Of a stretch of DNA of 34,129 nucleotides, positions 194 to 16,318 are shown in pieces. This DNA is from Symbiobacterium sp. Its GTDB lineage: Bacteria > Bacillota > Sulfobacillia > DUSP01 > DYEP01. The position numbers were made by a program, and so were the translations under genes. Position 1 is the first letter of the stretch. Each line of letters starts with the position of its first letter. Below the pieces are notes generated by a model, which saw only the letters and a list, made by a program, of their open reading frames with translations, had not been told where the DNA came from and did no database searches. The stretch is from positions 1 to 34,129 of the forward strand of contig DYEP01000137.1 in assembly GCA_020725675.1 (NCBI GenBank), read 5' to 3'.

Positions 194-2674
194 TTGCAGG
201 TGGTAAATGCTCCTCCCAAATTAGCCACTGACTGCCCCGAAGAGCTGCTTAGTCTCTTTCGGGCTGTCATTGGGTCTCAGCAGGCACAACCTTTTGAGCA
301 CCAGGCAAAAGCCTGGGAGAGCATACTTGGCGGAAACAGAGTGTATCTCATTGCAGGGACGGCTTCAGGGAAAAGCCTTGCTGTTTTGATCCCGCTCATT
401 TACCAGGCAAAAGTAGACCCGCTACGCCGGATAGCGCTCCTTTATCCGACCCGTGCATTGTTAGAAGACCAGGCTACTGTCGTTCTACGCATAGCAGAGT
501 TGTGCGGACTCAGGGGTGAGGTATCTTACATCATCGGTGGAATGAAACGAACAGAGGTTCTTCATGCCCTTACCCACCGAATCATATTAGCTACTCCAGA
601 CGCGCTTTACTGGTTCTTCCGAAAGACAAGCAAGTACTCAGCACTTCTAATGTACTCGCTGACTTTTATTACCGACTTTTTGCTTGATGAGGCGCATCTT
701 ATGGGAGGACTCTCAGCCAGCAACCTCCGACATTTCCTGGAGAAGATAGCCTTCTTTCGGGAGAAGTACTTGAACTACCCTGCTGCTAGATTACACGTTC
801 TGACTGCAACACCGACGCCTTCGTCAAACCTCTTGGTGGAAGGTGTAAGCCCCATCCACGGCCGATCAAAGGTAGGCACAGTGGATTTCTCGGTAAGGTT
901 GCTCCGGGACAGAGGATCCATTGAGTTCTGGGAAACAGAGATTAACGAACAGCGGAAAGAGGGGTTTCGCCGCCTTATTGTGGTATTGAACTCCGCCCGA
1001 AAGGCGCATCAGATCTTTGACCGTACGCGCGAACATGTCATAGGATTACCTGATCTCCCTGGGGGGAGAGCACCCTTCGCTGTTCTTCTTGATAGCATTA
1101 GAGAGTTTATCACAGGAGGCTCCGCTGAGCAGAAAGATATTTTGCTTTCATTTCTTGATACGAAGAAGGCCCCAGTCTCAAAGGTAATCAAAGCAGCGGG
1201 GAGCCTAGAATGGACTATGGATGATTGGGATGTAGTACTCGAACAAGCTGGGGTCGACGTACCGAGCATTGATAGATGCGTACTGGAACGGCTGGAAAGT
1301 ATTGAGGGCGTAAACAATGCTGAAACTTGGGCTGCTTTATGGAAGGATCTCCGAGACGTCTTCGCACCAGAAGTTCTGAGTTCGCTAAAGACTGCATGGG
1401 AACACCATCTCGTTAGGCCAGGAGCAGAGCTCCTGATTAGGATACCGGATATAGTTTCAAATCAGGCTGTCTCAGAATGGGAACGAGTATTGACCACAGC
1501 TAATATAGAAGGACGTTCTCTAAAGGAGTGGCGACGCCAGATTGCTGAGCATGTCACACACCCATATATCAGGTTCTGGGATACCACACCAATGTTCCTG
1601 TATACTGGAGGAATGAGTTCGAACGATAGGGACGGTATGATCTCCTGTTTCAACAGTGACGCTTTTGAGCAGGCGATCATGGTTTCCACACAGGCAGTTG
1701 AAGCGGGCGTGGATTTTGATGCGGACTGTCTTCTTACTGAAGAATCCGATGCAAGCGCCATTCTTCAGCGCTTCGGAAGAGTAGGACGCAGAAATGCAAC
1801 AGGTACCTCGGCCCGGGTGATATTGTTCACGAGCGGTAATACGCTCGGAAGGCTTAGAGACGCTCTTTCAGAAGTTATGCAGCGGGAGGATTTCTCTCGG
1901 GTAATTGCTGAGTGCTGCAAAAACCGCGGTTTTCTGGGAAATAGTGAATATGTTGATGCCATGCACGCCGAGATCTTCCGTCAGATTGGGGTTTCTGGCC
2001 GGTCCTGGGTTAGATCTTTACCGTTTACAGAAAGAGTCATGCGCGATTCTAGAATCAAATGGGCGTACGGCTTGAGGGGGATAGGGGCTTCTGTCCAACT
2101 AAGCAGCGGAGTTATGCGAGAAGCTCTGAGCGTCCTTCCGTTGATCAATAATAAAGAGCTGATAGCTGCCGAATCGCCGTTTGTACTGGCATATGCTGAA
2201 GTTGACTTTGATACTATTGCTTGCAGGAAATGGTCTGGAAGGATCGTGGTTGACAATAGGAGCCAGTTTAATGCACTTGTAGCTGTCGCGGAGTGCTCGA
2301 CTGATGGTGTGTGGTCAGCATATGACAAAAGTTCGATCCCCTCAGAGATACTAAAGAACGGGGTCTTGCTTTGCTACGGCGGCCTTCCACTTCTGAGAGA
2401 CCTTCGCGATGGATGGGAGAGTATTGGACGATTGGAGCGTGTCTCTGACAGGAACGGCAAGTGGCTTTCGCTTCCCGAGCAGTGGTATCTTCTAATTCTG
2501 GACGCGGGTACTACAATGTCAGAACAGGTATTAGAACTGGCAAATGCCTGCGAGTCAGAGGTAGAAATGCTGGGCGGTCATGGAGGCCATGGAAGCACAC
2601 CGTGGACTTACATATTAGACAAGGGGGCAGGCGCGTGCGTCGAGATCTACCGCAGGGCACGGGAACAGACGTAA
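194..2674 (+). CDS. cas3: Cas3' helicase of a type I-D-like CRISPR-Cas system
   Basis: An 826-residue superfamily 2 helicase without an HD nuclease domain. It should be recruited to DNA-bound Cascade and unwind the target for degradation. Visible motifs: a Q-motif-like HQ at 36-37, Walker A AGTASGKS at 54-61, a PTRAL block near 85-89, DEAH at 165-168, TATPTPSS (motif III) after about residue 200, and QRFGRVGRR (motif VI) from 525. A long region between about 300 and 480 has no motif I recognise. The TTG start at 194 is chosen because GAGGGGG lies 8 bases upstream; GTG at 200 is an alternative. The next gene starts inside its 3' end. Assignment to I-D rests on the following cas10d-csc2-csc1 genes and on the stand-alone helicase form, which is normal for that subtype. 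Confidence 0.85.
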   Translation: MQVVNAPPKLATDCPEELLSLFRAVIGSQQAQPFEHQAKAWESILGGNRVYLIAGTASGKSLAVLIPLIYQAKVDPLRRIALLYPTRALLEDQATVVLRIAELCGLRGEVSYIIGGMKRTEVLHALTHRIILATPDALYWFFRKTSKYSALLMYSLTFITDFLLDEAHLMGGLSASNLRHFLEKIAFFREKYLNYPAARLHVLTATPTPSSNLLVEGVSPIHGRSKVGTVDFSVRLLRDRGSIEFWETEINEQRKEGFRRLIVVLNSARKAHQIFDRTREHVIGLPDLPGGRAPFAVLLDSIREFITGGSAEQKDILLSFLDTKKAPVSKVIKAAGSLEWTMDDWDVVLEQAGVDVPSIDRCVLERLESIEGVNNAETWAALWKDLRDVFAPEVLSSLKTAWEHHLVRPGAELLIRIPDIVSNQAVSEWERVLTTANIEGRSLKEWRRQIAEHVTHPYIRFWDTTPMFLYTGGMSSNDRDGMISCFNSDAFEQAIMVSTQAVEAGVDFDADCLLTEESDASAILQRFGRVGRRNATGTSARVILFTSGNTLGRLRDALSEVMQREDFSRVIAECCKNRGFLGNSEYVDAMHAEIFRQIGVSGRSWVRSLPFTERVMRDSRIKWAYGLRGIGASVQLSSGVMREALSVLPLINNKELIAAESPFVLAYAEVDFDTIACRKWSGRIVVDNRSQFNALVAVAECSTDGVWSAYDKSSIPSEILKNGVLLCYGGLPLLRDLRDGWESIGRLERVSDRNGKWLSLPEQWYLLILDAGTTMSEQVLELANACESEVEMLGGHGGHGSTPWTYILDKGAGACVEIYRRAREQT

Positions 2675-3348
2675 CACTGTTGCAGAGGTTTTCGTCCCTA
2701 CTGGCCAAGAGTGACGGAACAACGCTGCTAGAACATGCTGCTTCGGTATGCGAGGATTGCGCACGCCTGTGTCGCCTCGTTCCAGGGTACCGCCGCGAGG
2801 ACATTCGCAACCTTCTGGTGGCAAGCTTCATACACGATGTGGGCAAGATGTCACCAACCTTTCAAGACATCCTAAGAGGTAAATCAGACAGAAGAATCAA
2901 GCATGAGGCACATTCTCTTGATTATTACAGGGAGGTGGAGGATAGTGCTTCGGATATATGTAGATTCATTTCTGACTGTTCCGGGGAGGATTGTACCGGG
3001 GAATTGTGCTGGGAGGACATCTGGGGTTTCGTAGTAAGCCATCATGGATTGTTGACTCTGGTTAGGCGAGGGGAGCAGCTGCAAGCTACGCGCGATTGGA
3101 CAGGCTTACGTCCAGAAGATGAAGCCATAACACTGGCAGATCTCCTTTGGAGATATTACCCTCTTGGGGGCGCAGTTATACTTTCTGACTTGATAGACTC
3201 AGCATCCAGGGCAGGCTATCATTCGATCCGTAAAGCTTTATGGGAAGCGACTTCTCTAGAAGGAGTGAAGACAGCACTGGAGGAGGTGGCCACTCCATAC
3301 ATCTCACCTGTGACTCAAGACCTGTTGGAACTACTGCTTATAGGATAG
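2635..3348 (+). CDS. cas3'': HD-domain nuclease, Cas3''-like (detached HD of Cas10d)
   Basis: A 237-residue HD-superfamily protein. Metal-binding residues fit the Cas HD nuclease pattern: H34 in a LEHA motif, H67-D68 in FIHDVGK, a KHEAHS histidine pair near residue 90, and H136-H137 in a SHHG motif. In type I systems this domain cuts single-stranded DNA exposed by the helicase. The frame stays open upstream to 2461, but that part overlaps the helicase and looks low quality. I chose GTG at 2635 because AAGGGGG lies about 8 bases before it; TTG at 2680 is possible. In canonical type I-D the HD domain is the N-terminus of Cas10d; here it is its own gene directly before the Cas10d core. The stop TAG is inside the next gene's ribosome binding site. 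Confidence 0.8.
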   Translation: MRRDLPQGTGTDVTLLQRFSSLLAKSDGTTLLEHAASVCEDCARLCRLVPGYRREDIRNLLVASFIHDVGKMSPTFQDILRGKSDRRIKHEAHSLDYYREVEDSASDICRFISDCSGEDCTGELCWEDIWGFVVSHHGLLTLVRRGEQLQATRDWTGLRPEDEAITLADLLWRYYPLGGAVILSDLIDSASRAGYHSIRKALWEATSLEGVKTALEEVATPYISPVTQDLLELLLIG

Positions 3349-3355
3349 GAGGTGA
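3347..3355 (+). promoter_or_regulatory. Strong ribosome binding site for cas10d core
   Basis: AGGAGGTGA overlaps the stop codon of the HD nuclease gene and lies 6 bases before ATG 3362. It decides that start over the in-frame TTG at 3359. It also argues that the split between the HD gene and the Cas10d core is a real gene boundary and not a sequencing frameshift. Confidence 0.75.
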
Positions 3356-3361
3356 GCATTG

Positions 3362-5221
3362 ATGAGTTTCTTCAGAGAAGCCCTGAGCGAATTCCTGAGT
3401 AGGGACTGTCCTGTCAGTTGCACCGAAAATGCGATTCTGCAGGCTATAGTGGCGAAAGTGCACTATGCAGAATGGGGAACTGGGAAGAATCGGTTGGTAC
3501 TGATACGTTTGAGCAGACCAGTGCAAATGAGAGATGAAGTTTTCCTGGGCAATCTCTTGCTGAACAGCTTTTTGGGACGGACTGCGGCTGTTGGACTGGA
3601 GAACGCAGCAGGTCCGGGACGCTGCCTTAACTTGGCAAGTGATATTGAATCCTACTTTTACCTGGTGCGTACCGACAAGAGCCTGGACGAGCTGGCGGCA
3701 GCAGCAAAGGAAGCCTGGCTTGCTTCTCTTCCCAGTCTTTATTTCGACATGCCTGATCAAAAAAGAGGCCTCTTTGGAAGCCTGGTGAATAGACTTAACA
3801 GTTACAGGGCCAGCTTTATCCAACCCTTTCCTCTCATGGTAGTCCCAAAAGCATGGGCGAGACGTATGGAGATGGAAGTCAGACGGTATCTCATGAAAGC
3901 GATCCAGGCGGAGTGGCCGGATAGCGTGGCGAATATTCTGGCAAACATCGCCTTCTTCTACGGGACAGACGGATACGAGGTGCAAAGTCCGGTCGAATTC
4001 CTTGTGCGGTTGGTGACGCGTCACTCGATCCTTAATGGGCCAGACCTGGCAAGGGCGGTAAACCTTCCTGATGGCTACGATTTCTCTGGTTCAGGCGCGA
4101 AGGATTTGATTGCAAAATTGATAAAAGAAAACGCGTTCTACGCAGATGAGATGGGCCGGATGCTCACAGAGTTGTTGCAGGCTTTTGGGAAGAGTATCGA
4201 CTCCGGTTCACTTGATTGGCTAATGCCATATCACACTAGAAAGGGGACGATGCTTGATCTTCCCCCAGAAGAGGTACTCGATGAAGTTTTGCGCGATACG
4301 GTGATTGGTGGGCGTGTATGCTCCGCCTCCAGTCTGAGTTCGTCTCATCTTTGCAGGATGTGTGGTATTCGGGAGGCTCGACTCGAAGGCGCAACTATCA
4401 TTAGCAACGATTCGTTTACACGTTTTCACAACCAGGAGATTCACGGGAAAGACGGTAGACTGTGCATAACTTGCGCGCTGTGTGCTTACCTTCACATCGG
4501 ATTAACAGGCACTGCTACTCCTGTTAAAGGCCCTGTCCCAAAGAGAGAGAATGTTGTTTTCTTCTACTCGGATCTATCACTCAAAGAACTACTGGATCTC
4601 AAAGACAGGATCGCGGAAGAAATCGAGAGGTGGCAGACTTCGAAATCCGTTTCTTCAGAAGGCGAGAGTCCTCTGCAGAAGGCGGCCAGGGCTAGCAGGT
4701 TGGAAAGGGAACTTGAGGCTATTCTCAAAGGAACGGATGTAAGTCAAGTTCACATCTTCCCTCTTGGAATCGGTGCCAGCCCACTGAACGTTATACTGCT
4801 GCCGGAGAGTTTCTATCTTGAGTCCAAGAGGTTCCAAAAGAGCCGCTATGTTGTATCTCACATTCTTCTCTGGCTGCGTGAGCATTTAGGAGCCAATAGT
4901 AGTCTGTTCTTCAACTCACTTCCTGACCTCAGCCGCTGGGGTCTGGATTCGTCCCAACTGATGGTTGTAAACGGGTCGCCTATCGACCCAGAGTCTGAGT
5001 ACAATCGGCTCGAGTACTTAAGGGAAATTGTATGGTCGCTTAGCAGACACCGAATTAAGGAGGGGCTTAAGTACCGGATGGTAGTGGCGGAGAGGATGGA
5101 GCAAGACCCGTTCGGTACGTTTTCGCACCTGATCAGGGAGAATCTTGATTCTTTAAGTATAAGCGCGGCAGCTGATGTATGTAACAAGCTCTATGCTTTG
5201 AGGGAGGTGTTATCTGGATGA
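3362..5221 (+). CDS. cas10d: Cas10d (Csc3)-like large subunit lacking the HD domain
   Basis: A 619-residue protein at the position of the type I-D large subunit, which recognises the PAM and stabilises the Cascade. The clearest feature is a Cys cluster: CRMCG at 331-335 and CITCALC at 368-374, matching the zinc-finger region of Cas10-family proteins. There is no GGDD cyclase motif, as expected for Cas10d, whose palm domains are degenerate. No HD motif is present at the N-terminus; the preceding gene supplies it. From memory, Cas10d proteins run to roughly 900-1000 residues or more, so this one is short at both ends. It overlaps the next gene by ATGA at 5218-5221, which implies coupled translation. 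Identification rests mainly on the Cys cluster and on csc2/csc1 downstream, not on strong sequence recall. Confidence 0.65.
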   Translation: MSFFREALSEFLSRDCPVSCTENAILQAIVAKVHYAEWGTGKNRLVLIRLSRPVQMRDEVFLGNLLLNSFLGRTAAVGLENAAGPGRCLNLASDIESYFYLVRTDKSLDELAAAAKEAWLASLPSLYFDMPDQKRGLFGSLVNRLNSYRASFIQPFPLMVVPKAWARRMEMEVRRYLMKAIQAEWPDSVANILANIAFFYGTDGYEVQSPVEFLVRLVTRHSILNGPDLARAVNLPDGYDFSGSGAKDLIAKLIKENAFYADEMGRMLTELLQAFGKSIDSGSLDWLMPYHTRKGTMLDLPPEEVLDEVLRDTVIGGRVCSASSLSSSHLCRMCGIREARLEGATIISNDSFTRFHNQEIHGKDGRLCITCALCAYLHIGLTGTATPVKGPVPKRENVVFFYSDLSLKELLDLKDRIAEEIERWQTSKSVSSEGESPLQKAARASRLERELEAILKGTDVSQVHIFPLGIGASPLNVILLPESFYLESKRFQKSRYVVSHILLWLREHLGANSSLFFNSLPDLSRWGLDSSQLMVVNGSPIDPESEYNRLEYLREIVWSLSRHRIKEGLKYRMVVAERMEQDPFGTFSHLIRENLDSLSISAAADVCNKLYALREVLSG

Positions 5222-5811
5222 ATCCTGACAGGATAGACGCATTGGTAGATCACCTTTGCATGGTGCTAGACGCCATGGGTGAGATTCCGCTATCCCTTCG
5301 AGAGGCACGCGCACATCAGTTTGAAAAATACCCGAGAGAACTCCTAGCTAGCCTCGAGAAGCACGGAGGAGACCCACAACTGGCGCTGCCCGAGTGGTTG
5401 ACCCGGATACAGAGACTGATGCTGAATCCGAAGGACAAAGAGTACGGTGGTTTACAGATAGCGAACGTGCTCCAGGAGACGGAGAGGCTAAGAGGATTTA
5501 TATCAGAGAATTTTCCTCACTTCGACCGGGAGACGTTGAGGCATCTTCGGGCCAGCCTGTTGGCTAGAGTGCTTGCCACAATGGCAAATTGCTGGGAGCT
5601 GGCAAGAGCTTACTCATATTCCGATACGGGTGCTTCTGATAAGTTTACACCTGAGAGCATTAATAGGGATTTTGCCCGCAGCGTGATGGAGGAGCTACAA
5701 CGTATCCCTGAGTCACGTCGCAACGCTATCCTGGAACTAGCCAAGAAACACGTGCTCTTCCATATCCCTTACTACCGGGCATTTACGAAAGAAGGGAGAG
5801 GAGAAAATTGA
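5218..5811 (+). CDS. Small helical protein, candidate stand-alone Cas11d
   Basis: A 197-residue protein with no motif I can name. It appears almost all alpha-helical: charged and leucine-rich stretches, few glycines, no Cys cluster, no membrane segment, no signal peptide. Its place between the Cas10d core and Csc2, and its ATGA overlap with cas10d, make a Cascade small subunit (Cas11) the best guess. In known type I-D systems the small subunit is made from an internal start within the 3' part of cas10d; here the Cas10d core is short and a separate gene of fitting size follows, so this could be that C-terminal segment as its own gene. The function is inferred from position, size and helical character only. 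Confidence 0.5.
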   Translation: MNPDRIDALVDHLCMVLDAMGEIPLSLREARAHQFEKYPRELLASLEKHGGDPQLALPEWLTRIQRLMLNPKDKEYGGLQIANVLQETERLRGFISENFPHFDRETLRHLRASLLARVLATMANCWELARAYSYSDTGASDKFTPESINRDFARSVMEELQRIPESRRNAILELAKKHVLFHIPYYRAFTKEGRGEN

Positions 5812-6737
5812 AGACACTCGAATCTGCTCTGTCGCCCATTGCAAAGGTATTAGTACCCTCGGGCGCCAAGGGAAAGAACAAGGGTACACTACCGCCTGTA
5901 TTTAGCAGAAATGTAGTAACCATTGTCTCATTGAAAACGGTCACGACGCGCTTCTTACCTGTCAGTCACGAAGGCTTTTCTAATGAAACCTATGTGGATA
6001 AAGTAGACTTGCTAGGAACCAAGAGAGCGGAGTTCATCGCCCGTAAGCAAAAGGGTATAGAACGGAGGGCTCACATGAGCCTCTTTAGAGAGATGCTGGA
6101 AGCCAAGGGCTTGAAATGGGAACAGGCCTTTGAGGACAAGTTCGGGCGACCATGCGTAATCCCCGGGAGCCTCTGTGTCACTTGCTGGAATTGTTCGCTG
6201 TTTGGAGCGCTAGAGGCCGGAAAAGGCGGTACGTTCGCCAGAGTAAGGTACTTTGATACCTGGACGTTCCAATCTGCTGATGACTGTGTGGCGTCAGCTA
6301 CTTCGGAAGAAGGCCTCGGAATTGGAAATACCGTCAGTGAAGACCTGGCTCAGGCGAGAGGTGCCGATTCGTATCACCTTTACGAGTATGTGAAAGCAGG
6401 GAGCACATTTCCAGTAATTACAGTTCTGGAGTCACCAACGGCTCTAGATGTAGCAGGTATCATTATGGCCATACAACGTGCTGACGTTCATGGGTACGGG
6501 AAGTACTCTGCAAACCACGGCAAGTTTAGTACTGAGTTTGTGGCCGTAGCCGCCGGGATGCCGCGCTTTTCCGTTTTGGACCTACTAGAAGCTGGTGACC
6601 CGTCCGAGGTAAGAGCAAAGATTTCGAGTCACTCACTGGACTTTGAAACAGACAACGTTGTGATTGGGCATGACAAGATCACCGCTTTGGGCAATGCCCT
6701 TCCTGGTCTTTTTGATGAGTACTGGAGCCAGCTGTAG
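5808..6737 (+). CDS. csc2: Csc2 (Cas7d) backbone subunit, type I-D-like
   Basis: A 309-residue protein matching Csc2, the Cas7 subunit that polymerises along the crRNA spacer. Supporting features are a CVTCWNCSLFGAL block near residues 122-134, typical of the Cys-containing insertion before a LFG motif in Cas7-type proteins, and a YHLYEYVKAGSTFP stretch near 195-208 like the conserved Csc2 core. The TTG start at 5808 is preceded by AGAGGAG at about the right distance and overlaps the previous stop (TTGA), so translation is probably coupled. Csc2 followed directly by Csc1 is the diagnostic gene pair of type I-D. No truncation is evident. Confidence 0.7.
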   Translation: MKTLESALSPIAKVLVPSGAKGKNKGTLPPVFSRNVVTIVSLKTVTTRFLPVSHEGFSNETYVDKVDLLGTKRAEFIARKQKGIERRAHMSLFREMLEAKGLKWEQAFEDKFGRPCVIPGSLCVTCWNCSLFGALEAGKGGTFARVRYFDTWTFQSADDCVASATSEEGLGIGNTVSEDLAQARGADSYHLYEYVKAGSTFPVITVLESPTALDVAGIIMAIQRADVHGYGKYSANHGKFSTEFVAVAAGMPRFSVLDLLEAGDPSEVRAKISSHSLDFETDNVVIGHDKITALGNALPGLFDEYWSQL

Positions 6738-6753
6738 AACGGGGCGATGAGAC

Positions 6754-7500
6754 ATGAATGTTCGAAGACTGGTCTTCCGTGTCTGCGGGTACTTGACTTT
6801 GGTTCAAAGCGACTTCGGAACGGAATACAGGACATACCAGTTCATATCTTCTGAAGCTCTGTACGCCTCCTTAACTCGCGGTGCCACACGGCGTTTTGGC
6901 AGAATAGAAGCAGATATGAACCGCGACTTCCATCAGTGGTATGAGGTCAGCAGTTACCCCGTGTGGTTTCTTCCGGGTATCTTTGACGGACCGCCAAAAC
7001 GTGAAGAACACGTGTTTAATGTTGTAGATGAGCTTACTCCGTCCACAAGCGAGTATAGCAGCGTTTCAGCAAAGGGGTGGAAAGTGTCAAAGAGAACCAG
7101 CCTGCCGACATATGGGCTTATAGAGTCCATTAAGCCTGGTCAGGTATTTTCTACGGTCGGTCTGGGTGAAAAGAGACTGCTCGAGGGATTTGAAAAGGGT
7201 CAGACTTTCCTGTTAGGGAAAAAGAGGGTGATGATTCAACTCATGCACCTATCTTGCGTCGGAGAACTCCGGCCGGGTGCAGGGGAAGATGAATGCTGGC
7301 CAATACCGGTAAGACCTGATAGCCTCCGGCGGTTTACCTCGTATACAGTCCACTATGCGACTCCAGAATTCCTGATTGCCAGCGGGAAGGGGGAGGGGCT
7401 TCTATCTGCTTCAGTACTGTTAGAGGATAAAGAAGGGGCGATAGCCATTCCCGAATGGTGGCTTGAGGGGCTCACCTGGTTGAGGCAGAAGACGGGTTGA
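6754..7500 (+). CDS. csc1: Csc1 (Cas5d) subunit, type I-D-like
   Basis: A 248-residue protein that fits Csc1, the Cas5-type subunit that holds the 5' handle of the crRNA. It opens with a beta-strand-rich stretch (RLVFRVCGYLTLV) typical of RAMP folds, has a YGLIESIKPGQVF block and a FLLGKKR motif at about 150-157, which fits the Csc1 pattern of a glycine-containing strand near the middle of the protein. It starts with ATG 16 bases after csc2 and is the last intact gene of module 1. In canonical I-D loci the next gene would be cas6; only a possible remnant follows here. Confidence 0.68.
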   Translation: MNVRRLVFRVCGYLTLVQSDFGTEYRTYQFISSEALYASLTRGATRRFGRIEADMNRDFHQWYEVSSYPVWFLPGIFDGPPKREEHVFNVVDELTPSTSEYSSVSAKGWKVSKRTSLPTYGLIESIKPGQVFSTVGLGEKRLLEGFEKGQTFLLGKKRVMIQLMHLSCVGELRPGAGEDECWPIPVRPDSLRRFTSYTVHYATPEFLIASGKGEGLLSASVLLEDKEGAIAIPEWWLEGLTWLRQKTG

Positions 7501-7962
7501 TTGCGAGCACCAATCTGCCGGATGAGATGGTCACTCCTTTGCTGGGTGGAGTACTGGAGATCCAAACAGGGTCCCGATACTGCTCTTACTTTGCCATGTC
7601 GGGATTGGTAATCAGTCAGTGACGTATTGCCTTAGAGTCTCAATGCTGCCACTGGCTAAACTGTCTATGCCGTCCTTGAGTAAAGTAGTGTCCAGTATCC
7701 GCGAAACGGGGACTGAACTTATCTGGCTGTGCGTTGGCTGGATTATCGTTTCCACGAATCCGCGGAGAGTGGGTACCTGTCAGCGCTAATTGTACATCTG
7801 CGTAGTACGGGCTCTCACACCTGACGCGGGTGTGGTAAGCTATGGTAAACATGCAGGAATTTCCTAGTGTATGACGAAACTGGAATGATGGTACCTCATC
7901 CCAATCTGTAACTTCATCCCGTTGGCAATTGTTTGGCAGTTGGTCAGGAAGGGTGGGGAATA
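7501..7962. other. Gap between modules 1 and 2
   Basis: Apart from the possible cas6 tail there is no supportable gene. A 48-codon frame from ATG 7643 to TAA 7789 continues the remnant frame and looks like noise. No repeated units that would indicate a CRISPR array are present. I could not find a well-spaced -35/-10 pair, so the promoter of module 2 is unidentified. The purine-rich AGGAAGGGTGGGG at about 7947-7958 serves as the ribosome binding region of cas10. Confidence 0.5.
7526..7645 (+). pseudogene. Possible remnant of a cas6 3' end
   Basis: In frame 2, between a stop at 7523-7525 and about 7645, the translation reads GHSFAGW, then a DPNRVPILLLL stretch, then CHVGIGNQSVTYCLRV. This resembles the end of Cas6 endoribonucleases: a F.G strand, a block of leucines, and a glycine-rich G-x-G...TY-G-L-G finish. 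Here two of the expected glycines are replaced (YCLR) and no start codon or upstream domain remains. The spot is exactly where type I-D loci carry cas6. A second short frame, TTG 7497 to TGA 7622 (41 codons), overlaps the csc1 stop by TTGA but resembles nothing I know. I treat the remnant as a hypothesis based on pattern only. Confidence 0.33.
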
Positions 7963-10377
7963 GTGGACATACTTGAATACAGGACTGTTGTGCTGGCAGG
8001 GTTGTTGCATGACATTGGGAAGTTCCTTCAGCGAGGGGACTATGGGTCAATGCAGGTTCAGGGTAAGCACCCTGCCGTGTCTCAGGTCTTCGTTGACGCT
8101 CATAGAGAATTCTTCTCCAAGGTGGTCGATCCGGAGTTACTGGCGTCACTAGTGAAGAGACACCATGAAGGATCGGGCTTCCCCGAAGAGTTTCACCCAG
8201 CTGCTGCTACTGGCCGTGAGCGCACGCTCGCGTTTCTGATCAGTCGGGCCGACAATTATTCGTCGGCGGAGCGGGGGCACGGGGGCATCCGCCGGTCATT
8301 CCGTACTACTGCCCTGGCTAGCATCTTTTCTGAAATGGAGCTTCACTGCAAGGCTCCTCATACCAAGAGCTACTATTTGCCCACACCGCTTCAGCCAGAG
8401 AAGGCCTTCCCAGTTGAACAGTCCGACGTAGACCCAGTGGTACTAACCAACCATATCCGCAGTTTCGGTGAGGAGATGACAGCACTGAAAGAATGCAAGA
8501 TCTCCGTATTTGACACACTGTACTCACTGATACTGTCTTTGCTTGAGAAATATACGTGGTGTGTTCCAAGCAGCACTCAGAGCCCTACCCCAGATGTTTC
8601 TCTTTACGATCACCTGCGGACAACCAGTGCTATTGCAGCAGCACTGTACCAGTATCATGAAGAGAAAGGCTGGGATGAGACGACCATAAGAGACGATACT
8701 CTACTGAAGCTGCGGCTCATGGTGGGTGATTTTACAGGGATTCAGAAGTATATTTTCGGCATTTCTTCCACTGGGCCAGGAAGAGTCGCAAAACGGCTGA
8801 GGGCGAGGTCGTTCTATGTTAGCGCTCTCCTTGGTGCGATTGCCGACAGCATATTGGACGCACTGGATCTTCCTCCGGTCAACTGCGTCATGTGTTCTGG
8901 CGGTCGATTCTATCTTCTACTACCAAACACTGATAAGGCGCGGGATGTTGTGAAACAGAAGCAGAGAGACATCGAGGCATGGCTCTTGAAAACATACGAA
9001 GGACGAATTGCTTTGGCCATGGGCGACATAGCGTTCTGCGGTTCGGAAATGGAGCAATTTGGAGAGATACTGTACGAGGCAGATTGTGAGTTAGATCGAG
9101 CCAAAGCAAGACCGTTTTCGCAGGTCTTAACAGATGGCGAGAATTGGGACATAACTAAGTTTCAAATGTCTCTTGCTCCCCGAAGTCATGCTTGCCCGGG
9201 GTGTGGCCAAAGGCTAGCGACAGGTGACGCAGAGCTATGCACTGAGTGCTCGCGTGACCGTGATCTGGGGAGCCGTCTAGCCAATGCGCGCTACCTTGGT
9301 TTTTATAAGAATGAAAGGCTCAAAGACACCTTTGAATTATGTCCAGGTGTTTACCTGGGCGTATACAAGGAGAAGCCTCTTGCTCTGGGATCCCCTTATA
9401 AGGTAATAAAAATAAACGACACTAATCTGTCGGACCTTTACGGTTTGCCTGCCTCAACAGAGTTTATTGCCAATTACGTACCAACTTTCTCTGAACAGCC
9501 ATGCACCGGGTGCAAAGGTTGCCCAGACAGAGAATTAGCCAGCCCTGGCCAACCGAAATTCTTCGATTGCTTGGCCTATCGTGCGAAGGGCAAGGCTTAC
9601 CTAGCATGTATTAAGGCGGATGTGGATAACCTTGGTAATCTGTTTGTCAACGGTCTGCGACGTGAAGAAGGCAAAGAGGTTGTCAGTATTTCGAGGCTAT
9701 CCACCTTCAGCAGAATGCTTAACTTGTTCTTTGGCGGGGTAATCAATTCAATGATTCAAAACGATTACCCCAACTGCTATACCGTCTATTCTGGAGGCGA
9801 CGACCTGTTGCTCGTGGGTCCTTGGGACGAAGTATTGAACGTGGCAGAAAAAGTGCGTTCCGAGTTCTGCCGGTTTACAGGCAGCAACCAAAACTTGACG
9901 ATATCCGCAGGTATAAGTTTATTCAAACCACGGTTCCCGGTTTCTAAAGCCATTGAGGTTGCGGCTGAGAACCTTGAGAAAGCCAAGAGGCAGGCATCGC
10001 AGGATCCATCCAAGAACCGAATATGTGTCTTTAAGGAGCGGATGGCATGGGGTGACTATAGTTCGTTGCATGAACGAGCCAAGAAACTGGAGACGTGGGT
10101 TAATGCAGGTGTGACCAATACGGGTTTTATTCACAGGCTTCACCGGTATGCTGATCTGTACCGACGCTACAGGGATGATGGAATGCTGGATGGCTTGAAG
10201 TTCCTCGCGCTGCTTTGCTACGACATCTCCCGGAATATGCCAAGACGAGACGATCCCAGCGAGGAAAAGAGATCCCTGAGGTCTTGGGTGGAATCCCTTA
10301 TGAACCTGGAGTCGAAAGACCTGAAGCATCTTGCCTTTTTAACGACATATGCCCTGACTGCGACCAGGCCGGGCTAA
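7963..10377 (+). CDS. cas10: Cas10/Csm1, type III-A large subunit with HD and GGDD
   Basis: An 804-residue Cas10 that should carry both activities of type III effectors: target-activated single-stranded DNA cleavage by the HD domain and cyclic oligoadenylate synthesis by the palm domain. Visible are H16-D17 in LLHDIGK, an RHHEGSG motif near 68, a degenerate first palm (CSGGRFYLLL), a zinc finger CPGC at 411-414 with CTEC at 426-429, a second Cys group C514/C517/C520, and GGDD at 611-614 in a YSGGDD context. Both catalytic motifs are intact. GTG 7963 is chosen over an upstream TTG at 7933 because a G-rich ribosome binding region precedes it and the HD motif starts close after it. It is followed by csm2 17 bases downstream. 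Confidence 0.92.
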   Translation: MDILEYRTVVLAGLLHDIGKFLQRGDYGSMQVQGKHPAVSQVFVDAHREFFSKVVDPELLASLVKRHHEGSGFPEEFHPAAATGRERTLAFLISRADNYSSAERGHGGIRRSFRTTALASIFSEMELHCKAPHTKSYYLPTPLQPEKAFPVEQSDVDPVVLTNHIRSFGEEMTALKECKISVFDTLYSLILSLLEKYTWCVPSSTQSPTPDVSLYDHLRTTSAIAAALYQYHEEKGWDETTIRDDTLLKLRLMVGDFTGIQKYIFGISSTGPGRVAKRLRARSFYVSALLGAIADSILDALDLPPVNCVMCSGGRFYLLLPNTDKARDVVKQKQRDIEAWLLKTYEGRIALAMGDIAFCGSEMEQFGEILYEADCELDRAKARPFSQVLTDGENWDITKFQMSLAPRSHACPGCGQRLATGDAELCTECSRDRDLGSRLANARYLGFYKNERLKDTFELCPGVYLGVYKEKPLALGSPYKVIKINDTNLSDLYGLPASTEFIANYVPTFSEQPCTGCKGCPDRELASPGQPKFFDCLAYRAKGKAYLACIKADVDNLGNLFVNGLRREEGKEVVSISRLSTFSRMLNLFFGGVINSMIQNDYPNCYTVYSGGDDLLLVGPWDEVLNVAEKVRSEFCRFTGSNQNLTISAGISLFKPRFPVSKAIEVAAENLEKAKRQASQDPSKNRICVFKERMAWGDYSSLHERAKKLETWVNAGVTNTGFIHRLHRYADLYRRYRDDGMLDGLKFLALLCYDISRNMPRRDDPSEEKRSLRSWVESLMNLESKDLKHLAFLTTYALTATRPG

Positions 10378-10393
10378 GGGAGGAGAGATCAGG

Positions 10394-10828
10394 ATGACGT
10401 ATGGCGGCAGACCACGTCCGAATAATCCAACATTCTCGTTGCCTAGGAACTACCTTGAAGGAGGGTATTTTGCTCCTGATGGCCACATCAAGACAGAGTT
10501 GCTTACTGATGTGGCCCAACAGGTAGCTCAGGCTTTCGGAAGAGACCTGAGCAACAGTCAGTTTCGACGGTTCTTTGACCATGCGAAGGCAGTTGAGCAA
10601 AGGCTGGACTTGGTCAACAACTGGCGCGCTGTGGAGGGGGACGTCAAGAAGCTTGTTGCTTTTGCTGCTGAAGCTAAGGCAAAGAAGAAGGTTCCTTCGG
10701 TCTTCTTTGACTTTATTGAAAAGAACGTCTCTCATACGAATGACGAGAAGAGCTTTCGACGAGGGTTCCTTGAGCACATTCAGGCAGTCTTAGCCTTCCA
10801 CGCGTACAACAACCCAAGGAGAAACTAA
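10394..10828 (+). CDS. csm2: Csm2 small subunit
   Basis: A 144-residue, mostly helical protein that matches Csm2, the small (Cas11-type) subunit lining the type III-A complex. The LSNSQFRRFFDHAK stretch near residues 55-68 is the characteristic Csm2 motif, in which an L-T/S-x-S-Q-x-R-x-F pattern is usual. An extended N-terminus of about 45 residues with several prolines precedes it. The start ATG follows GGGAGGAG by about 8 bases. It sits between cas10 and csm3, the standard gene order. Confidence 0.88.
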   Translation: MTYGGRPRPNNPTFSLPRNYLEGGYFAPDGHIKTELLTDVAQQVAQAFGRDLSNSQFRRFFDHAKAVEQRLDLVNNWRAVEGDVKKLVAFAAEAKAKKKVPSVFFDFIEKNVSHTNDEKSFRRGFLEHIQAVLAFHAYNNPRRN

Positions 10829-10845
10829 GAGGGGGAAAAGCTGAC

Positions 10846-11502
10846 ATGGTGTTGAAGGAATTCCGAACTATCAGAGGAGTATTGGTCTGCAAGACCGGCC
10901 TTCATATTGGCGCAGGCAAGGACACCATTGAAATTGGTGGGGTCGATGCCCCAATCGTAAAGCACCCGATCACACAGGAACCTTACATACCGGGCTCGTC
11001 ACTAAAAGGCCGAATGAGGTCGTTGCTTGAGAAGAGATTAAATAAATTCAGTGATCGGGATCCCCATGAACCATGTAATTGCGGACGTAAGGATTGCATT
11101 GTTTGTAAACTGTTTGGCGCACACAAGAAGCCTTCATCAGAAGTGGCACCAACCCGGGTGATTGTTCGTGATGCCTACCTAACGAAGGAAACCCGTGAGC
11201 AGTTTCAGAAAATGCTAACGGAGAAAGGCAAGTCCTTTCTTGAGATTAAGGCAGAGAACATGGTTGATCGTCAGACAGGGGTTGCTACGAATCCCCGTTT
11301 CATTGAGCGGATTCCTGCAGGTGCAGCCTTCAACTTCGAAATTGTCATCCAGGTATTCGACAACGACAACAGCGAGGAACTCGAAAGCAAGGTGAAGGAG
11401 TGCCTGTCTTTGGTCGAGCAGACATACCTTGGAGGCTCGGGAAGTCGAGGTTACGGGCAGGTTGGGTTCACGTTGGAACCTACAGCGGTGGTGCGGTTTT
11501 GA
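10846..11502 (+). CDS. csm3: Csm3 (Cas7) backbone and RNA-cleaving subunit
   Basis: A 218-residue Csm3. The N-terminal LHIGAGKDTIEIGGVD block ends with D34 followed by APIVKHP, the position of the aspartate that in known Csm3 proteins cleaves the bound target RNA every six nucleotides. Next comes YIPGSSLKGRMRSLLE, the hallmark of Csm3/RAMP proteins. A CNCGRKDCIVCKLFG segment near 83-97 is the usual zinc-binding region. The C-terminus has the glycine-rich GGSGSRGYGQV loop. The catalytic aspartate is present, so target RNA cleavage should be intact. Its TGA overlaps the ATG of csm4. Confidence 0.93.
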   Translation: MVLKEFRTIRGVLVCKTGLHIGAGKDTIEIGGVDAPIVKHPITQEPYIPGSSLKGRMRSLLEKRLNKFSDRDPHEPCNCGRKDCIVCKLFGAHKKPSSEVAPTRVIVRDAYLTKETREQFQKMLTEKGKSFLEIKAENMVDRQTGVATNPRFIERIPAGAAFNFEIVIQVFDNDNSEELESKVKECLSLVEQTYLGGSGSRGYGQVGFTLEPTAVVRF

Positions 11503-12437
11503 TGAACCTATACCAGGTCAAGATTTGTCCAACATCCGATTACCAGACGCGGTGGAAGGCCTATCAACTATTCGGAGCTATGTGCTGGGCGATAAGCTGC
11601 TCTGAAGGAACTGATGCCCTGGGTGACTTCCTGAGCATGTATATCGCCGGGACCCCTCCGATCGTGTTATCTAACGGTTTCCCGGGAGACCTTCTGCCCC
11701 GCCCACATATACCCCAACCAAGATTGCCAAGGCGACTGCCGAAAGCAGACGCGGTCAGGCTCATGGCCACTTACAAAGACTCAAAACGGATTTCCCTACT
11801 GAATCTGGAGGAATTTAACTCTTTAGTATCCGGTGAACCAGTGAGTTTGCACCGACCGGACTGTGTGCCCGAAGTGGAAGTAGTGGTATACCACAACCAG
11901 ATCGATCGAGTCACCGGCAGTTCCTTAGGTGAGAGTGGACTATATCCGCAGATATCTTCCTTTCTCGCGCACCCTTCGGGATACATTTCCATATACGCCC
12001 TTATCGCGCCGGATTGGTTGGAGAGATTCACCCGCTGGCTTCAAATCGCAGGAGAAGTAGGCATTGGCGGCAGGAAGTCGACGGGGAAAGGCAGATTTAC
12101 TGTGAAGTGTATAAGGGAGTTTAATGGATTTCGGAAACCGAAAGAAGCGAACGCATATGTTGCACTTTCGGACTATGTGCCGGCGAGTGGGGATCCGAGC
12201 AAGGGGTTCTACCGGATTGCCACTGTATATGGCCGCATAGGTGGGCGTCTTGCAAGCGATGGCAGTGTATTCAAGTCTCCCGTTTTCACCTTAACAGCCG
12301 GTTCGGTAATGCTGGTAGAGGGCAATATCCGCCCCTATTATGGCCGTGTGGTGCCCGGGGTTTCTCCAAGCCACCCCCAGGTTTTCCACTATGGCCTTAC
12401 GCCAGCCGTCCCGGCGACTATCGGGGGGACAATGTGA
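11502..12437 (+). CDS. csm4: Csm4 (Cas5-type) subunit
   Basis: A 311-residue protein that fits Csm4, which caps the 5' end of the crRNA and contacts Cas10. Features seen: an N-terminal YQLFGAMCWAI helix, a HNQIDRVTG block near residues 130-138, the GIGGRKSTGKGRF glycine-rich loop near 190-202, and a C-terminal AGSV...HYGL region. The frame is open upstream to 11400, but the start at ATG 11502 is preferred since it overlaps the csm3 stop by one base (TGATG) and the residues before it are simply csm3 in another frame. A Csm5 gene, normally next, is missing. Confidence 0.85.
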   Translation: MNLYQVKICPTSDYQTRWKAYQLFGAMCWAISCSEGTDALGDFLSMYIAGTPPIVLSNGFPGDLLPRPHIPQPRLPRRLPKADAVRLMATYKDSKRISLLNLEEFNSLVSGEPVSLHRPDCVPEVEVVVYHNQIDRVTGSSLGESGLYPQISSFLAHPSGYISIYALIAPDWLERFTRWLQIAGEVGIGGRKSTGKGRFTVKCIREFNGFRKPKEANAYVALSDYVPASGDPSKGFYRIATVYGRIGGRLASDGSVFKSPVFTLTAGSVMLVEGNIRPYYGRVVPGVSPSHPQVFHYGLTPAVPATIGGTM

Positions 12438-13615
12438 TGGTGCCTTTGATTGGTCCTTCAGGAAACGCGATATCGTCACAACCGTTACTAGTGATATCAA
12501 CAGTTGGAACGAGTCTTCTTACTAAACAACTGAGACTGCACGACAATACTGACGGGTGGGATAAACGTATTCTTGACACTGCGAATTTGACTCGGCCGGA
12601 GATTGATCCAGAAACAAAGGCTAAGATTGATGAGTTAGCCGAGAGGGCTTTATCGGATCTTAAGGCTGCGGACGTAGGGCGAAGGAGGCAGTTGAGTGCT
12701 GAACTCAACGGGTTATATGGCATCTATAACGGAAATTTGGCCGGTTCTTCAAGGGATATGCATTTCCTTCAGGCGACAGATACATATCAGGGGCGAATGA
12801 CGGCAGAAGTCTTACGCGAATTCCTAAGAACTGAAGGCGTTACGGCAGACACCTATATACCGCCACGATTGTCGACTGTGGACACAGAGGCGTTCGAGCA
12901 TGGTATCAAAGAACTGATCCGATGGTGCGATGAGTGTATCCCGGGTTATAAGGACAGGGGCTACCAGGTGGTCTTCAACCTAGTGGGAGGTTTTAAAGCG
13001 GTACACTCTTATATGCACACTATTGGAATGTTCTATGCCGACCGAATTACCTACATTTTTGAGGGCTCCAACTCTTTGGTAAACATACCGCGTTTGCCTG
13101 TCAGAATAGAAGACGAGGCTTTACTCCCATATGCCACTTACCTGCTGATGATGGAAAAGGGTTATTTGTGCCCTGTTAGCTACTTGGAAGGCATTTCTGA
13201 GGTAGTAATAGACTCGGATGGTTCCCATGCGTTCCTCTCTAGCTGGGGTCAACTGCTGCTGGCCCAACTGAAGAGAAAGAAGGCCCTGTCAGAAAGACTA
13301 TTGGAGTTCCCGTATCTAGACTATGCCGAATCATTCAAAGAAGACTTTCGCAGAGCCGAGGTCGGCGATCGCATTCGTCTGCAGGAGACGCTTGCAAAAG
13401 TCTCCAAACTCCTGTCAGAACATCATGGTAGTCTTTCAGGGCTGAGAAGCGACCCGGGACTACAATATGAGGATCTAGTTAACAGCAGGCATGGCGGCAG
13501 ACCTATTGGCCACTTTCGCATCAATGATAGCATGCGTGCTACCTGTGTTAGTGTGCCTCGAGGATCACTCTTACTCAGGCGGTTTGGACCTCACTCAATC
13601 ATTGAAAGGCCATAA
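12437..13615 (+). CDS. CARF-RelE effector, Cami1-like, in place of Csm6
   Basis: A 392-residue protein with an N-terminal CARF domain of the APE2256-like type: VISTVGTS at 19-26 forms the first ligand-binding loop, and VVFNLVGGFKAV at 178-189 the second, followed by a YIFEGS strand and NIPRLPV. A middle region of about 230-290 looks like a winged helix. The last 100 residues resemble a RelE/HigB mRNA interferase: an amphipathic helical segment, then basic strands with GHFRIN (R361), R367 and a terminal FGPHSIIER (H386, R391). Proteins with this architecture (Cami1) are activated by cyclic tetra-adenylate from Cas10 and cleave mRNA on ribosomes. ATG 12437 has GGGGGG 8 bases upstream and overlaps the csm4 stop. 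The RelE call is from pattern, the CARF call is firm. Confidence 0.75.
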   Translation: MVPLIGPSGNAISSQPLLVISTVGTSLLTKQLRLHDNTDGWDKRILDTANLTRPEIDPETKAKIDELAERALSDLKAADVGRRRQLSAELNGLYGIYNGNLAGSSRDMHFLQATDTYQGRMTAEVLREFLRTEGVTADTYIPPRLSTVDTEAFEHGIKELIRWCDECIPGYKDRGYQVVFNLVGGFKAVHSYMHTIGMFYADRITYIFEGSNSLVNIPRLPVRIEDEALLPYATYLLMMEKGYLCPVSYLEGISEVVIDSDGSHAFLSSWGQLLLAQLKRKKALSERLLEFPYLDYAESFKEDFRRAEVGDRIRLQETLAKVSKLLSEHHGSLSGLRSDPGLQYEDLVNSRHGGRPIGHFRINDSMRATCVSVPRGSLLLRRFGPHSIIERP

Positions 13616-13737
13616 ATCATTATCACGCCGTCAGATGATGCCGGAGTGATAGTTTAGTATCATCCTATAGGTATCTGGCATAATCGGTCGCGGTAAATTG
13701 AGGCGCTGAAAACGGACACTGAAGGAGGTGGGTCAAT
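13616..13737 (+). promoter_or_regulatory. Gap between modules 2 and 3 with hairpin and weak promoter signals
   Basis: An imperfect hairpin (TATCAC at 13621-13626 with GTGATA at 13646-13651 and some inner pairs) could end the module 2 transcript, although no T-tract follows. CATAAT at 13679-13684 is a possible -10 box, but nothing close to TTGACA lies 16-18 bases before it. AAGGAGGTG at 13722-13730 is a near-perfect ribosome binding site for the next gene. Confidence 0.35.
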
Positions 13738-15198
13738 CTGAAATTTACTGGTCATCCGCTATTCGATGTCGGGTTGGCGACTATGGTTGCATTTGCAGGT
13801 AAACGAGACCCTGCTGAACTCACAGGTGAAGACCTCGATCGTATAGCGAAGTATATGGAAGAGAACTACGTGGTCGATCCGCTTAAGTCTTTTCTCACTG
13901 TTGCGTTTCCCAACTCAGGTTTTACAAACCCAGCGTACACAAACTCGCCCGAGAAGCGAGTGCTCTATGCGAAAAAAGTGCTCCAGGCCTACAAGGACGA
14001 AGCCCCCCGGCAGGCACGGCGCTGTGTCTTTACGGGCAAATCCACCCTTGGTGCATCATTAGATCTTGACGGCAATCTGGAGCCGGGCCGTGCCTTCCGA
14101 CAGCACATACCCATGCTCACTGGTGTTGGTGTTATCAATTTTTTCCCTGATGGTGATGCTGGATTACCGATATCTGGCGAGGCGCTGCTTGCAATTCAAG
14201 CGCTTCCGCTGGGATGTGCGAAGGCTGAAGGTAAGCTACTTGCAGTACACTGTGACGATCCGGGTCTTATGATAGGCTTCGCTAAGCAGTTCCTGGAGAA
14301 TAACCGGAAGGTGATTCACACAGCCCAGTTGGCCGGTGAGAAGAAACTCCCGGAGGCTCCACATCGAACCACTACTCTATTGATCGATCAGCTACTCAGG
14401 CTCGAAAAAGAAAGGGCGTACGCAGCCGCTGAGCGCCCTGTCTCTATCAGTGCGTATCATCTCAGCAACAGCGGCCAGGGGGCCTCGATCGCCATCTATC
14501 ACCTTCCTATGGAAGTAACTGGGTTCCTGATTGCAGCTGTCAACTCCAAGTACCGAGACGATTGGAGCAAGCTCACGGCTCGTGGATGGGAAATATCAAG
14601 AGGGAAAAAGCGCGGAGGTGACGACGAGTTTCAGCCTCGGTTCAATGTCTTGTATGACGACTTATTCAGTCTACCCGAGGGCTCTCACAGGTTTATCCGC
14701 AGGTACTTCCTGCGAGTACCCGAACGGACCAAGCTGCCAGGCGATCCCAGGTCCACCTACTCGATGCGAAACGAGGCCGACCTAATATCATGGGGTTTGA
14801 CTGAACTCTTTCTCAGGAAGGTGGTGTCAATGGATAAGCAACGCATAGAACAAATTCGTACTTTGGGAGAAAACTTGGCCCACTACGTGATCGGAGAAAA
14901 TGATCGTCGATTCTTTCACACGTTCCTCACTGCGCCTCGGTACGACGTGCTAAGGGCGGCCATGATACGGGCAAGTCTCAACCTCGTCAAGCAAGGCAAG
15001 GAACCACTGGTCAGGTTTGATCCGTTCATTGAGGTATTCGAGGAAGGCGAGGATCTGCCGTATTCCGACTGGCGCCTTGCGCGAGATCTGGTTCTGATAA
15101 GGATGATCGAGTGCCTTTATGATGAGAAATGGTTACAGGCAAACGAAGAAGTCCTGCCTGATGAAGGTGCAGAGGTAATCTCTGAACTCACAAGCTGA
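13738..15198 (+). CDS. cas8: Cas8 large subunit (Cst1-like), probable CTG start
   Basis: A 486-residue Cas8-type protein, the PAM-recognising large subunit of a type I-B-like Cascade of the Cst (Tneap) lineage. The N-terminal FTGHPLFDVGLATMVAFAG matches the conserved opening of Cst1-type Cas8. That segment is only included if translation starts at CTG 13738, which lies 7 bases after AAGGAGGTG; the next usable codons, TTG 13774 and ATG 13783, are 43 and 52 bases away and would delete it. Cst1 proteins typically carry paired CXXC motifs; here only one Cys remains at that region (RRCVFTGKS), so the zinc site seems lost. The C-terminus is helical and acidic. The gene is followed 25 bases later by cas7. 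Confidence 0.78.
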   Translation: MKFTGHPLFDVGLATMVAFAGKRDPAELTGEDLDRIAKYMEENYVVDPLKSFLTVAFPNSGFTNPAYTNSPEKRVLYAKKVLQAYKDEAPRQARRCVFTGKSTLGASLDLDGNLEPGRAFRQHIPMLTGVGVINFFPDGDAGLPISGEALLAIQALPLGCAKAEGKLLAVHCDDPGLMIGFAKQFLENNRKVIHTAQLAGEKKLPEAPHRTTTLLIDQLLRLEKERAYAAAERPVSISAYHLSNSGQGASIAIYHLPMEVTGFLIAAVNSKYRDDWSKLTARGWEISRGKKRGGDDEFQPRFNVLYDDLFSLPEGSHRFIRRYFLRVPERTKLPGDPRSTYSMRNEADLISWGLTELFLRKVVSMDKQRIEQIRTLGENLAHYVIGENDRRFFHTFLTAPRYDVLRAAMIRASLNLVKQGKEPLVRFDPFIEVFEEGEDLPYSDWRLARDLVLIRMIECLYDEKWLQANEEVLPDEGAEVISELTS

Positions 15199-15223
15199 CT
15201 ATTTCAGGAAGCGAGGGATCAAG

Positions 15224-16306
15224 ATGGCATTTGTCACAGGTACAATAGTGATCGATGCTCCGGCCTCCGCATTAAACAACCTTGGTAAGATAGAAGGCGC
15301 GATGACGGATAACAGCACAGGAGTAAAGCATATCAAGACGCGGGAGGGCGCGTATCCCTATGTATCTGCGCAAGCATTCCGATTCTGGTTGCGCCAGACC
15401 TTAGAGAACGGCCCCTGGGGTTGGAAGAGCGCTCCCATTTTCAGAGAGCAGAAAATCGCCTATACCGACGCAAACCCGCTGGAGTGGTGGGATGACGATC
15501 TGTTCGGTTACATGCGAGCTCCGTCCACCAAGGCTTCTGCGGTCAAGGCACGCGAAGAGGATCAAACAAGAGCGAACGAGACACCCGTTTCTGAAACGCT
15601 CACCCGCGTATCCCCTTTCAGGGTAAGTACACTGGTCTCCATTGCCCCTGTCGCGCTGGTGAACGATTTTGGTGTGATGGCCCGTCATGAGGGGGACCCG
15701 GTGCCGCACGAGCACCAGTTCTATCGCACGACTTTGACTGGGCTGATTTCTCTTGATCTTGGTGCTGCAGGGACGTTCACGTACCAGAAGAGGACAGGCT
15801 ATCTGAATCTGGATCAAATCCGTATCGACCGAGCAAAGAAGGCTCAGCTTGAGGAACTGTCTGAGAAGAAAGCTTACAGGCTCCCATTAAAGGAGCGCAT
15901 GACGAGAATAAGTGCACTTCTTCAGGGGCTTGCAGTAGTATGCGGCGGGGCAAAACAGAGCCTTCACTACACCGATGTCAGCCCCGATATATTGGCGATT
16001 GCCGTGACACGCTCCGGAAACCACATACTCAGTCACATATTTGGCGCGGACAATAAGGGGAAGCTGACCCTGAAATTGGATGCACTGGAGGAAGTATTCC
16101 AGGTATTCGGAGACGATCTTCTTTCGCCGGTGTACTTTGGTTGGGTGAAGGGATACATGGACGAACAAAGAAGCACTCTAGAACGCTTCGCGTCTGAGAA
16201 CCCTGGTGCAGAATCGTGGAAAGGGCGTATCATAGTGACTCATCCGGTCAAGGCAGTAAACGCACTGTGCGAGGAACTCTCGGCCAACCCGAACTGGCTT
16301 GAGTGA
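15224..16306 (+). CDS. cas7: Cas7 (Cst2/DevR family)
   Basis: A 360-residue Cas7 of the Cst2/DevR family, the crRNA-binding backbone of type I-B Cascade. Typical elements: the N-terminal strand VTGTIVIDAPASALNN, the REGAYPYVSAQAFRFWLR block at about 40-57 (the conserved KTREG-YPYVSSQA-R-WLR pattern), a DLFGYM motif near 92, a SPFRVSTLVSI strand near 130, and HQFYRT near 167. No residue loss or frameshift is visible. The start ATG has GAGGGAT upstream. It stands between cas8 and cas5 in the standard order. Confidence 0.9.
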   Translation: MAFVTGTIVIDAPASALNNLGKIEGAMTDNSTGVKHIKTREGAYPYVSAQAFRFWLRQTLENGPWGWKSAPIFREQKIAYTDANPLEWWDDDLFGYMRAPSTKASAVKAREEDQTRANETPVSETLTRVSPFRVSTLVSIAPVALVNDFGVMARHEGDPVPHEHQFYRTTLTGLISLDLGAAGTFTYQKRTGYLNLDQIRIDRAKKAQLEELSEKKAYRLPLKERMTRISALLQGLAVVCGGAKQSLHYTDVSPDILAIAVTRSGNHILSHIFGADNKGKLTLKLDALEEVFQVFGDDLLSPVYFGWVKGYMDEQRSTLERFASENPGAESWKGRIIVTHPVKAVNALCEELSANPNWLE

Positions 16307-16318
16307 GGCGATGGGGGC

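Follow-up and report, generated by a model that had tools for sequence, protein, structure and literature searches.

We analysed a 34,129-nucleotide stretch of Symbiobacterium sp. DNA (contig DYEP01000137.1 of assembly GCA_020725675.1; the whole stretch is called the window below), in which consecutive open frames on the + strand encode an HD nuclease, a Cas10d core and a small subunit, with cas3' upstream and cas7d and cas5d downstream. The results indicate that together these genes probably make up a complete module for interference, belonging to a distinct and widespread type I-D-like lineage of clustered regularly interspaced short palindromic repeats (CRISPR) systems, in which the composite Cas10d is present as separate proteins. 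According to published accounts, type I-D has a fused HD-Cas10d-Cas11 protein and no cas11 gene, and Cas11d arises by internal translation (PMC10212523, PMC7689449). The original prediction for this DNA described three consecutive genes of 237, 619 and 197 residues, together about 1050 residues and thus near a full Cas10d. Their frames are intact and translationally coupled, the HD product being better described as up to 237 residues, and their summed length is 1053 amino acids (aa), compared with 975 to about 1158 aa for canonical Cas10d. A start signal had been claimed at each boundary; this applies to the core, which carries a strong Shine-Dalgarno sequence (aggaggtgagcattg before ATG), and to the small gene, which overlaps the core as ATGA with gggaggtg upstream, but not to the HD gene, where GTG 2635 has no Shine-Dalgarno sequence. 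The HD gene may start at GTG 2635 or, 15 codons later, at TTG 2680, and the product size is therefore given as 222-237 aa. The small gene and cas7d overlap as TTGA.

The core was compared with profile and structure collections. It matched the PADLOC model PDLC01506 Cas10_Id (670 positions, label CAS-I-D) at 1.8e-70, and this model matched all 13 lineage cores scanned. An AlphaFold2 model of the core built from 13 sequences (predicted local distance difference test, pLDDT, 80; predicted template modelling score, pTM, 0.83) gave a single significant Foldseek match in the PDB, 7sba_I (E 7.1e-5, probability 1.00, template modelling (TM) score 0.42 by query length), which is Synechocystis Cas10d in the type I-D Cascade; its weaker CRISPR matches were type III Cas10 proteins, including Csm1. 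This fold bears out the role first assigned to the core. In sequence order, the model shows strands with an inserted helical part, the zinc cysteines, a palm-like stretch reaching about residue 541 and four terminal helices. A CxxC...CxxC zinc finger lies at C331/C334/C368/C371, with the motif found in 16/16 cores; the core further has a Cyclase/RRM-like region, a degenerate palm and a thumb, and no GGDD is conserved among the 16 sequences. The last palm strand is followed by 78-112 residues (16/16 cores, mode 96). In S. islandicus Cas10d, the HD (1-186), Cyclase/RRM (187-425), zinc finger (426-490) and Palm (491-623) are followed by a Thumb of 96 residues (624-719) and by Cas11 (720-847) (PMC7689449). 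The core thus ends after a thumb-length tail too short to include a Cas11 domain as well, and the full Cas11-like C-terminus regarded at the outset as evidence against a three-part Cas10d is absent. By hhalign, the core C-terminus did not resemble the small protein and held no hidden Cas11 copy, and family-profile searches of the core gave no Cas8 match. As modelled, the core is a Cas10d without HD and Cas11 domains.

The small protein matched PADLOC PDLC01499 Cas11d (185 positions, label CAS-I-D) at 2.6e-17, as did 16/16 of its homologues, and its AlphaFold2 model (pLDDT 87) consists entirely of helices. Its gene always adjoins the core, in the Cas11d position. The core stop codon is lost in two relatives, L019 of Rubrobacter taiwanensis (942 aa) and L020 on a Poribacteria contig, and core and small subunit are read there as one frame, in which the small-subunit Shine-Dalgarno sequence and ATG are kept in frame (caggaggtgaatggc and caggaggcgaatcca, each before ATG). 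This internal start closely resembles that of the split relative L018 (caggaggtggaataac before ATG). The fused layout is that of canonical type I-D, in which an internal start yields Cas11d, corresponding to residues 830-975 of Synechocystis Cas10d. The role first proposed for the small protein is thus upheld by its position and by its C-terminal fusion to the core with its own start retained. We conclude that the small protein is most probably Cas11d; the genetic evidence from the fusions is stronger than the fold match, and the protein would be expected to adopt a Cas11 fold.

The HD protein had been taken for the HD part of Cas10d, and this assignment was not borne out. Its best profiles were PADLOC PDLC01254 Cas3 (7e-13), NCBIfam TIGR01596 (4.9e-8) and Pfam Cas3_HD (1.5e-6). 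Residues H34, H67-D68, H90, H136-H137 and D185 (window numbering) are invariant in 12/12 homologues and follow the order H-HD-H-HH-D, as in Cas3, a pattern shared with the type I-B Cas3 of the window itself. The third and fourth motifs (H90, H136-H137) are absent from seven canonical Cas10d proteins, and S. islandicus Cas10d has been reported to lack these second-metal ligands (PMC7689449). Cas3-HD profiles matched 6/6 HD members, compared with a weak match of a Cas10d profile to 1/6; hhalign against canonical Cas10d gave a trace only (E 0.0065, probability 6), and the HD profile had no match in the PDB at E 0.01. In most loci the HD gene overlaps the end of cas3', and in the rearranged locus L029 it lies beside the relocated cas3', away from the core. 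Judged by its motifs, profiles and gene neighbourhood, the protein is a stand-alone Cas3'' with a full two-metal Cas3 site and not a cut-off Cas10d HD domain. The adjoining cas3' matched Pfam DEAD (1.8e-19), Cas3-like_C_2 (1.5e-11) and PADLOC PDLC01533 Cas3 (7e-131), and the type I-D cas3' model TIGR03158 below its cut-off only. The order in L029 (7179-18417) is core-small-cas7d-cas5d, cas1-cas2-cas4-csa1 and then cas3'-HD. In L018 (6441-7208), the HD gene is broken by an in-frame TAG in the KHE motif region, with the remaining operon intact.

The lineage was present in 19 genomes of six phyla of bacteria and archaea, the window included. A search of the phylum with PDLC01506 added five further genomes with this operon, and a Cas7d alignment search yielded 17 named loci; three contigs common to both sets were counted once, the window was added, and L031, which has cas7d and no recognisable core or small gene upstream, was left out. 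A profile search of contigs with the core alone gave no match, and the Cas7d alignment succeeded instead; plasmids held no relative of the core and viral contigs none of Cas7d. The operon hosts are Bacillota, Chloroflexota, Actinomycetota (Rubrobacter taiwanensis), Poribacteria, Thermodesulfobacteriota and Methanothrix-type archaea. By hidden Markov model annotation, core and small subunit are separate genes in 17/19 genomes and fused in L019 and L020 (2/19), so that the same split does recur in relatives, as had been proposed for checking. The HD gene was seen in 13 genomes and was fused to the core in none of them (0/13); in L025 and L032 the roughly 7 kb upstream held none. Boundaries and start signals match across 17 genomes, including a closed chromosome (G128, 2,939,057 bp), and the gene order recurs in independent genomes, which makes it neither chance nor, as originally held, a frameshift artefact. 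Complete relatives carry cas6, cas1, cas2, cas4 and csa1, with arrays that range from 19 to over 40 repeats, and are therefore complete adaptive loci. The genome paper of Thermacetogenium phaeum reported one doubtfully classified cas operon in which cas3 seemed to be missing (PMC3551663). In L011 of G128, taken as this species, cas3' and cas3'' adjoin the operon, and the operon called a doubtful I-A is probably this I-D variant. In Rubrobacter taiwanensis, the Cas5d frame (L019, 10996-12288) is 430 aa long, a long extension relative to the usual 250 aa.

The remaining subunits agree with type I-D. Cas7d matched NCBIfam TIGR03157 (43.1 bits, cut-off 38) and Pfam Csc2 (37.1, cut-off 25.5), and Cas5d matched PADLOC PDLC01497 Cas5d (CAS-I-D, 6.7e-48), with no Pfam or NCBIfam match. 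The window operon therefore has a Csc2-type Cas7, a Csc1-type Cas5, an HD-less Cas3' and a large subunit of Cas10d fold, whereas HD is not fused to Cas10d, the HD site is not of the one-metal kind, and Cas11d has its own gene instead of arising by internal initiation. Because subunits and fold fit and the fusion features do not, we class it as a variant lineage of the I-D type, one that would function in the I-D manner, and keep it apart from canonical I-D. With the canonical systems (Synechocystis pSYSA, S. islandicus) it shares a Cas3' separate from the nuclease, the Cas7 and Cas5 types, a degenerate palm and the CxxC-CxxC zinc finger, and with Synechocystis also the gene order cas3'-cas10d-cas7d-cas5d; it differs in having own genes for HD and Cas11, a two-metal HD site and csa1 in the adaptation module. 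Separate cas3' and cas3'' and an adaptation module with cas4 and csa1 recall type I-A, but Cas8a and I-A type Cas7 and Cas5 are missing and the large subunit is folded like Cas10d. An own Cas11 gene, a Cas10-fold large subunit and weak Csm1 fold matches recall types III-A/B, but the operon has no conserved GGDD, its HD is unpermuted and not on Cas10, and a Cas3' helicase is present. A canonical-type I-D locus, L056 (G356), likewise has a stand-alone cas11d gene; it differs in that its HD is fused to Cas10d and its Cas10d and Cas11d are of cyanobacterial type by sequence.

In the mechanism that we favour, Cas7d (Csc2) would form the backbone on the CRISPR RNA (crRNA), Cas5d (Csc1) and the HD-less Cas10d would cap the crRNA 5' end and read the protospacer adjacent motif, and several copies of the separately translated Cas11d would line the belly. 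R-loop formation would then recruit the Cas3'' nuclease and the Cas3' helicase, most likely as a pair, which would introduce a nick into the displaced strand and break down the target; canonical I-D instead has the HD within Cas10d. Because cas11d is a gene of its own, the Cas10d:Cas11d ratio would be set by two start sites, with no internal cas10d start needed. Assembly, stoichiometry and DNA targeting are all predicted on this basis.

Several results weigh against this interpretation. Core and small subunit showed no detectable similarity by hhalign to seven canonical Cas10d proteins, nor any sequence similarity to fused-type Cas10d of the same phylum; for the 197-residue protein, the profile comparison initially proposed gave a Cas11d match in PADLOC and none to canonical Cas10d. 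Since PDLC01506 and PDLC01499 seem to be built on the same clade, their labels are not independent evidence. The small-subunit model had no significant Foldseek match in the PDB; its only listed type I/III effector match was 7sba_I, with the highest probability of the list (0.38; TM 0.40, E 6), a weak match in which the aligned part of 7sba_I is not indicated. Finally, no array, cas6 or cas1 lies within the window. When the PDB was searched by sequence with core and small subunit, neither single sequences nor alignments gave a match.

The absence of sequence similarity to Cas11d and of a significant fold match would also suit an unrelated helical accessory protein in place of Cas11. This is very unlikely, given that the small protein is all-helical, occupies the right place, always stands beside the core and is fused to it in two relatives, and that a core without a Cas11 domain needs a Cas11. 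Decayed Cas10d fragments or an assembly frameshift might be suspected because the genome is a draft of 253 contigs and the window holds no array; the shared boundaries and start signals in 17 genomes, one of them closed (G128), and the invariant active-site residues and zinc cysteines leave this with practically no chance, and we consider it refuted by conservation. There is somewhat more to be said for Cas3'' docking permanently on the core at the canonical HD position, with Cas3' recruited alone and the split functionally neutral. The order cas3'-HD-core-small mirrors how the domains follow one another along Cas10d from its N- to its C-terminus, and the HD of S. islandicus Cas10d is a hybrid of Cas3 and stand-alone Cas3'' (PMC7689449). 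However, unlike canonical Cas10d the HD protein carries the two-metal site of Cas3, and its gene overlaps cas3', which it also accompanies in L029, so that permanent docking appears rather unlikely and recruitment of paired Cas3'' and Cas3' is preferred.

With regard to origin, the word "split" had implied an evolutionary direction that the trees do not sustain. In a Cas7d tree and a four-protein concatenated tree, the fused L019 and L020 fall in one well-supported subclade among split relatives. The fusion is thus most simply derived within the clade and looks so from these trees; one or two events would both fit. The Cas7d branch between the canonical and split lineages is about 10 changes per column, too long to polarise split against pre-fusion states relative to canonical I-D. 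Fused canonical-type I-D also occurs in Bacillota. In L056 (5567-8712), a 901 aa Cas10d ends in a short stub resembling Cas11 helix 1, and a 155 aa gene corresponds to canonical Cas10d positions 908-1053 (E 7e-29), an independently separate cas11d which indicates that separation does happen. A lineage derived by break-up of a canonical fused Cas10d, with Cas3'' replacing the HD, is therefore quite conceivable and compatible with the mechanism proposed above, although the fused state is nested and rare within the clade and the long Cas7d branch gives no direction. That the lineage instead keeps a pre-fusion I-D state, in which separate Cas3', Cas3'', Cas10-type core and Cas11 are ancestral, seems doubtful at present. 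If true, canonical Cas10d would have arisen by successive fusions, core to Cas11 with the internal start kept and HD to core, and one of these steps would have been repeated in the fusions of Rubrobacter and Poribacteria.

The coordinates are given in Table 1. The I-D-like genes are followed by modules of type III-A (7933-13615) and type I-B (13774-19346), so that window positions 194-19346 hold tandem interference modules of three types. The III-A module contains cas10, csm2, csm3, csm4 and a CARF-RelE gene; it apparently lacks csm5, with the CARF-RelE gene directly after csm4 (10846-13615). The I-B module contains cas8b, cas7b, cas5b and cas3. The only cas1 match of the genome and the cas6 match lie on another contig (C90), together with cas2, cas4 and csa1. 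There, the locus L037 (G000:C90, 4240-13158) has the order cas6 - 794 aa - 949 aa - cas1 - cas2 - cas4 - csa1. The 794 aa protein has a Cas4-like nuclease at its C-terminus and the 949 aa protein is a UvrD-like helicase; this overlapping helicase/nuclease pair inside the adaptation operon resembles AddB/AddA.

Table 1. Features of the type I-D-like operon in the window
Feature	Position	Strand	Description
cas3' helicase	194..2674	+	826 aa; DEAD/Helicase_C, without HD
cas3'' stand-alone HD nuclease	2635 (GTG) or 2680 (TTG)..3348	+	237 or 222 aa
cas10d core, without HD and Cas11	3362..5221	+	619 aa
cas11d stand-alone small subunit	5218..5811	+	197 aa, all-helical
cas7d / csc2 backbone subunit	5808..6737	+	309 aa
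cas5d / csc1-type subunit	6754..7500	+	248 aa
core translation start region	3345..3364	+	Shine-Dalgarno aggaggtg before ATG 3362
core/small junction	5200..5221	+	gggaggtg plus stop/start overlap ATGA

PADLOC curators had already labelled this core and the stand-alone small subunit as I-D. Neither the arrangement nor the Cas3''-type HD protein nor the core-small fusions were described in any paper that we found, and the arrangement goes unmentioned in the passages found in the 2025 classification (main text; PMC12669027). A conserved lineage with none of the fusions of HD-Cas10d-Cas11 breaks the published definition of type I-D. As a natural three-part Cas10d, it offers parts that can be purified separately, and the proposed evolutionary steps from type III to I-D to type I become testable. 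An internal-start problem has been reported on moving I-D to eukaryotes (PMC10212523), and a naturally separate cas11d removes this problem for genome editing. The fused relatives with their kept internal start show a gene pair turning into a single gene with a hidden second product. The arrangement, conserved in bacteria and archaea, thereby illustrates how composite proteins join or come apart.

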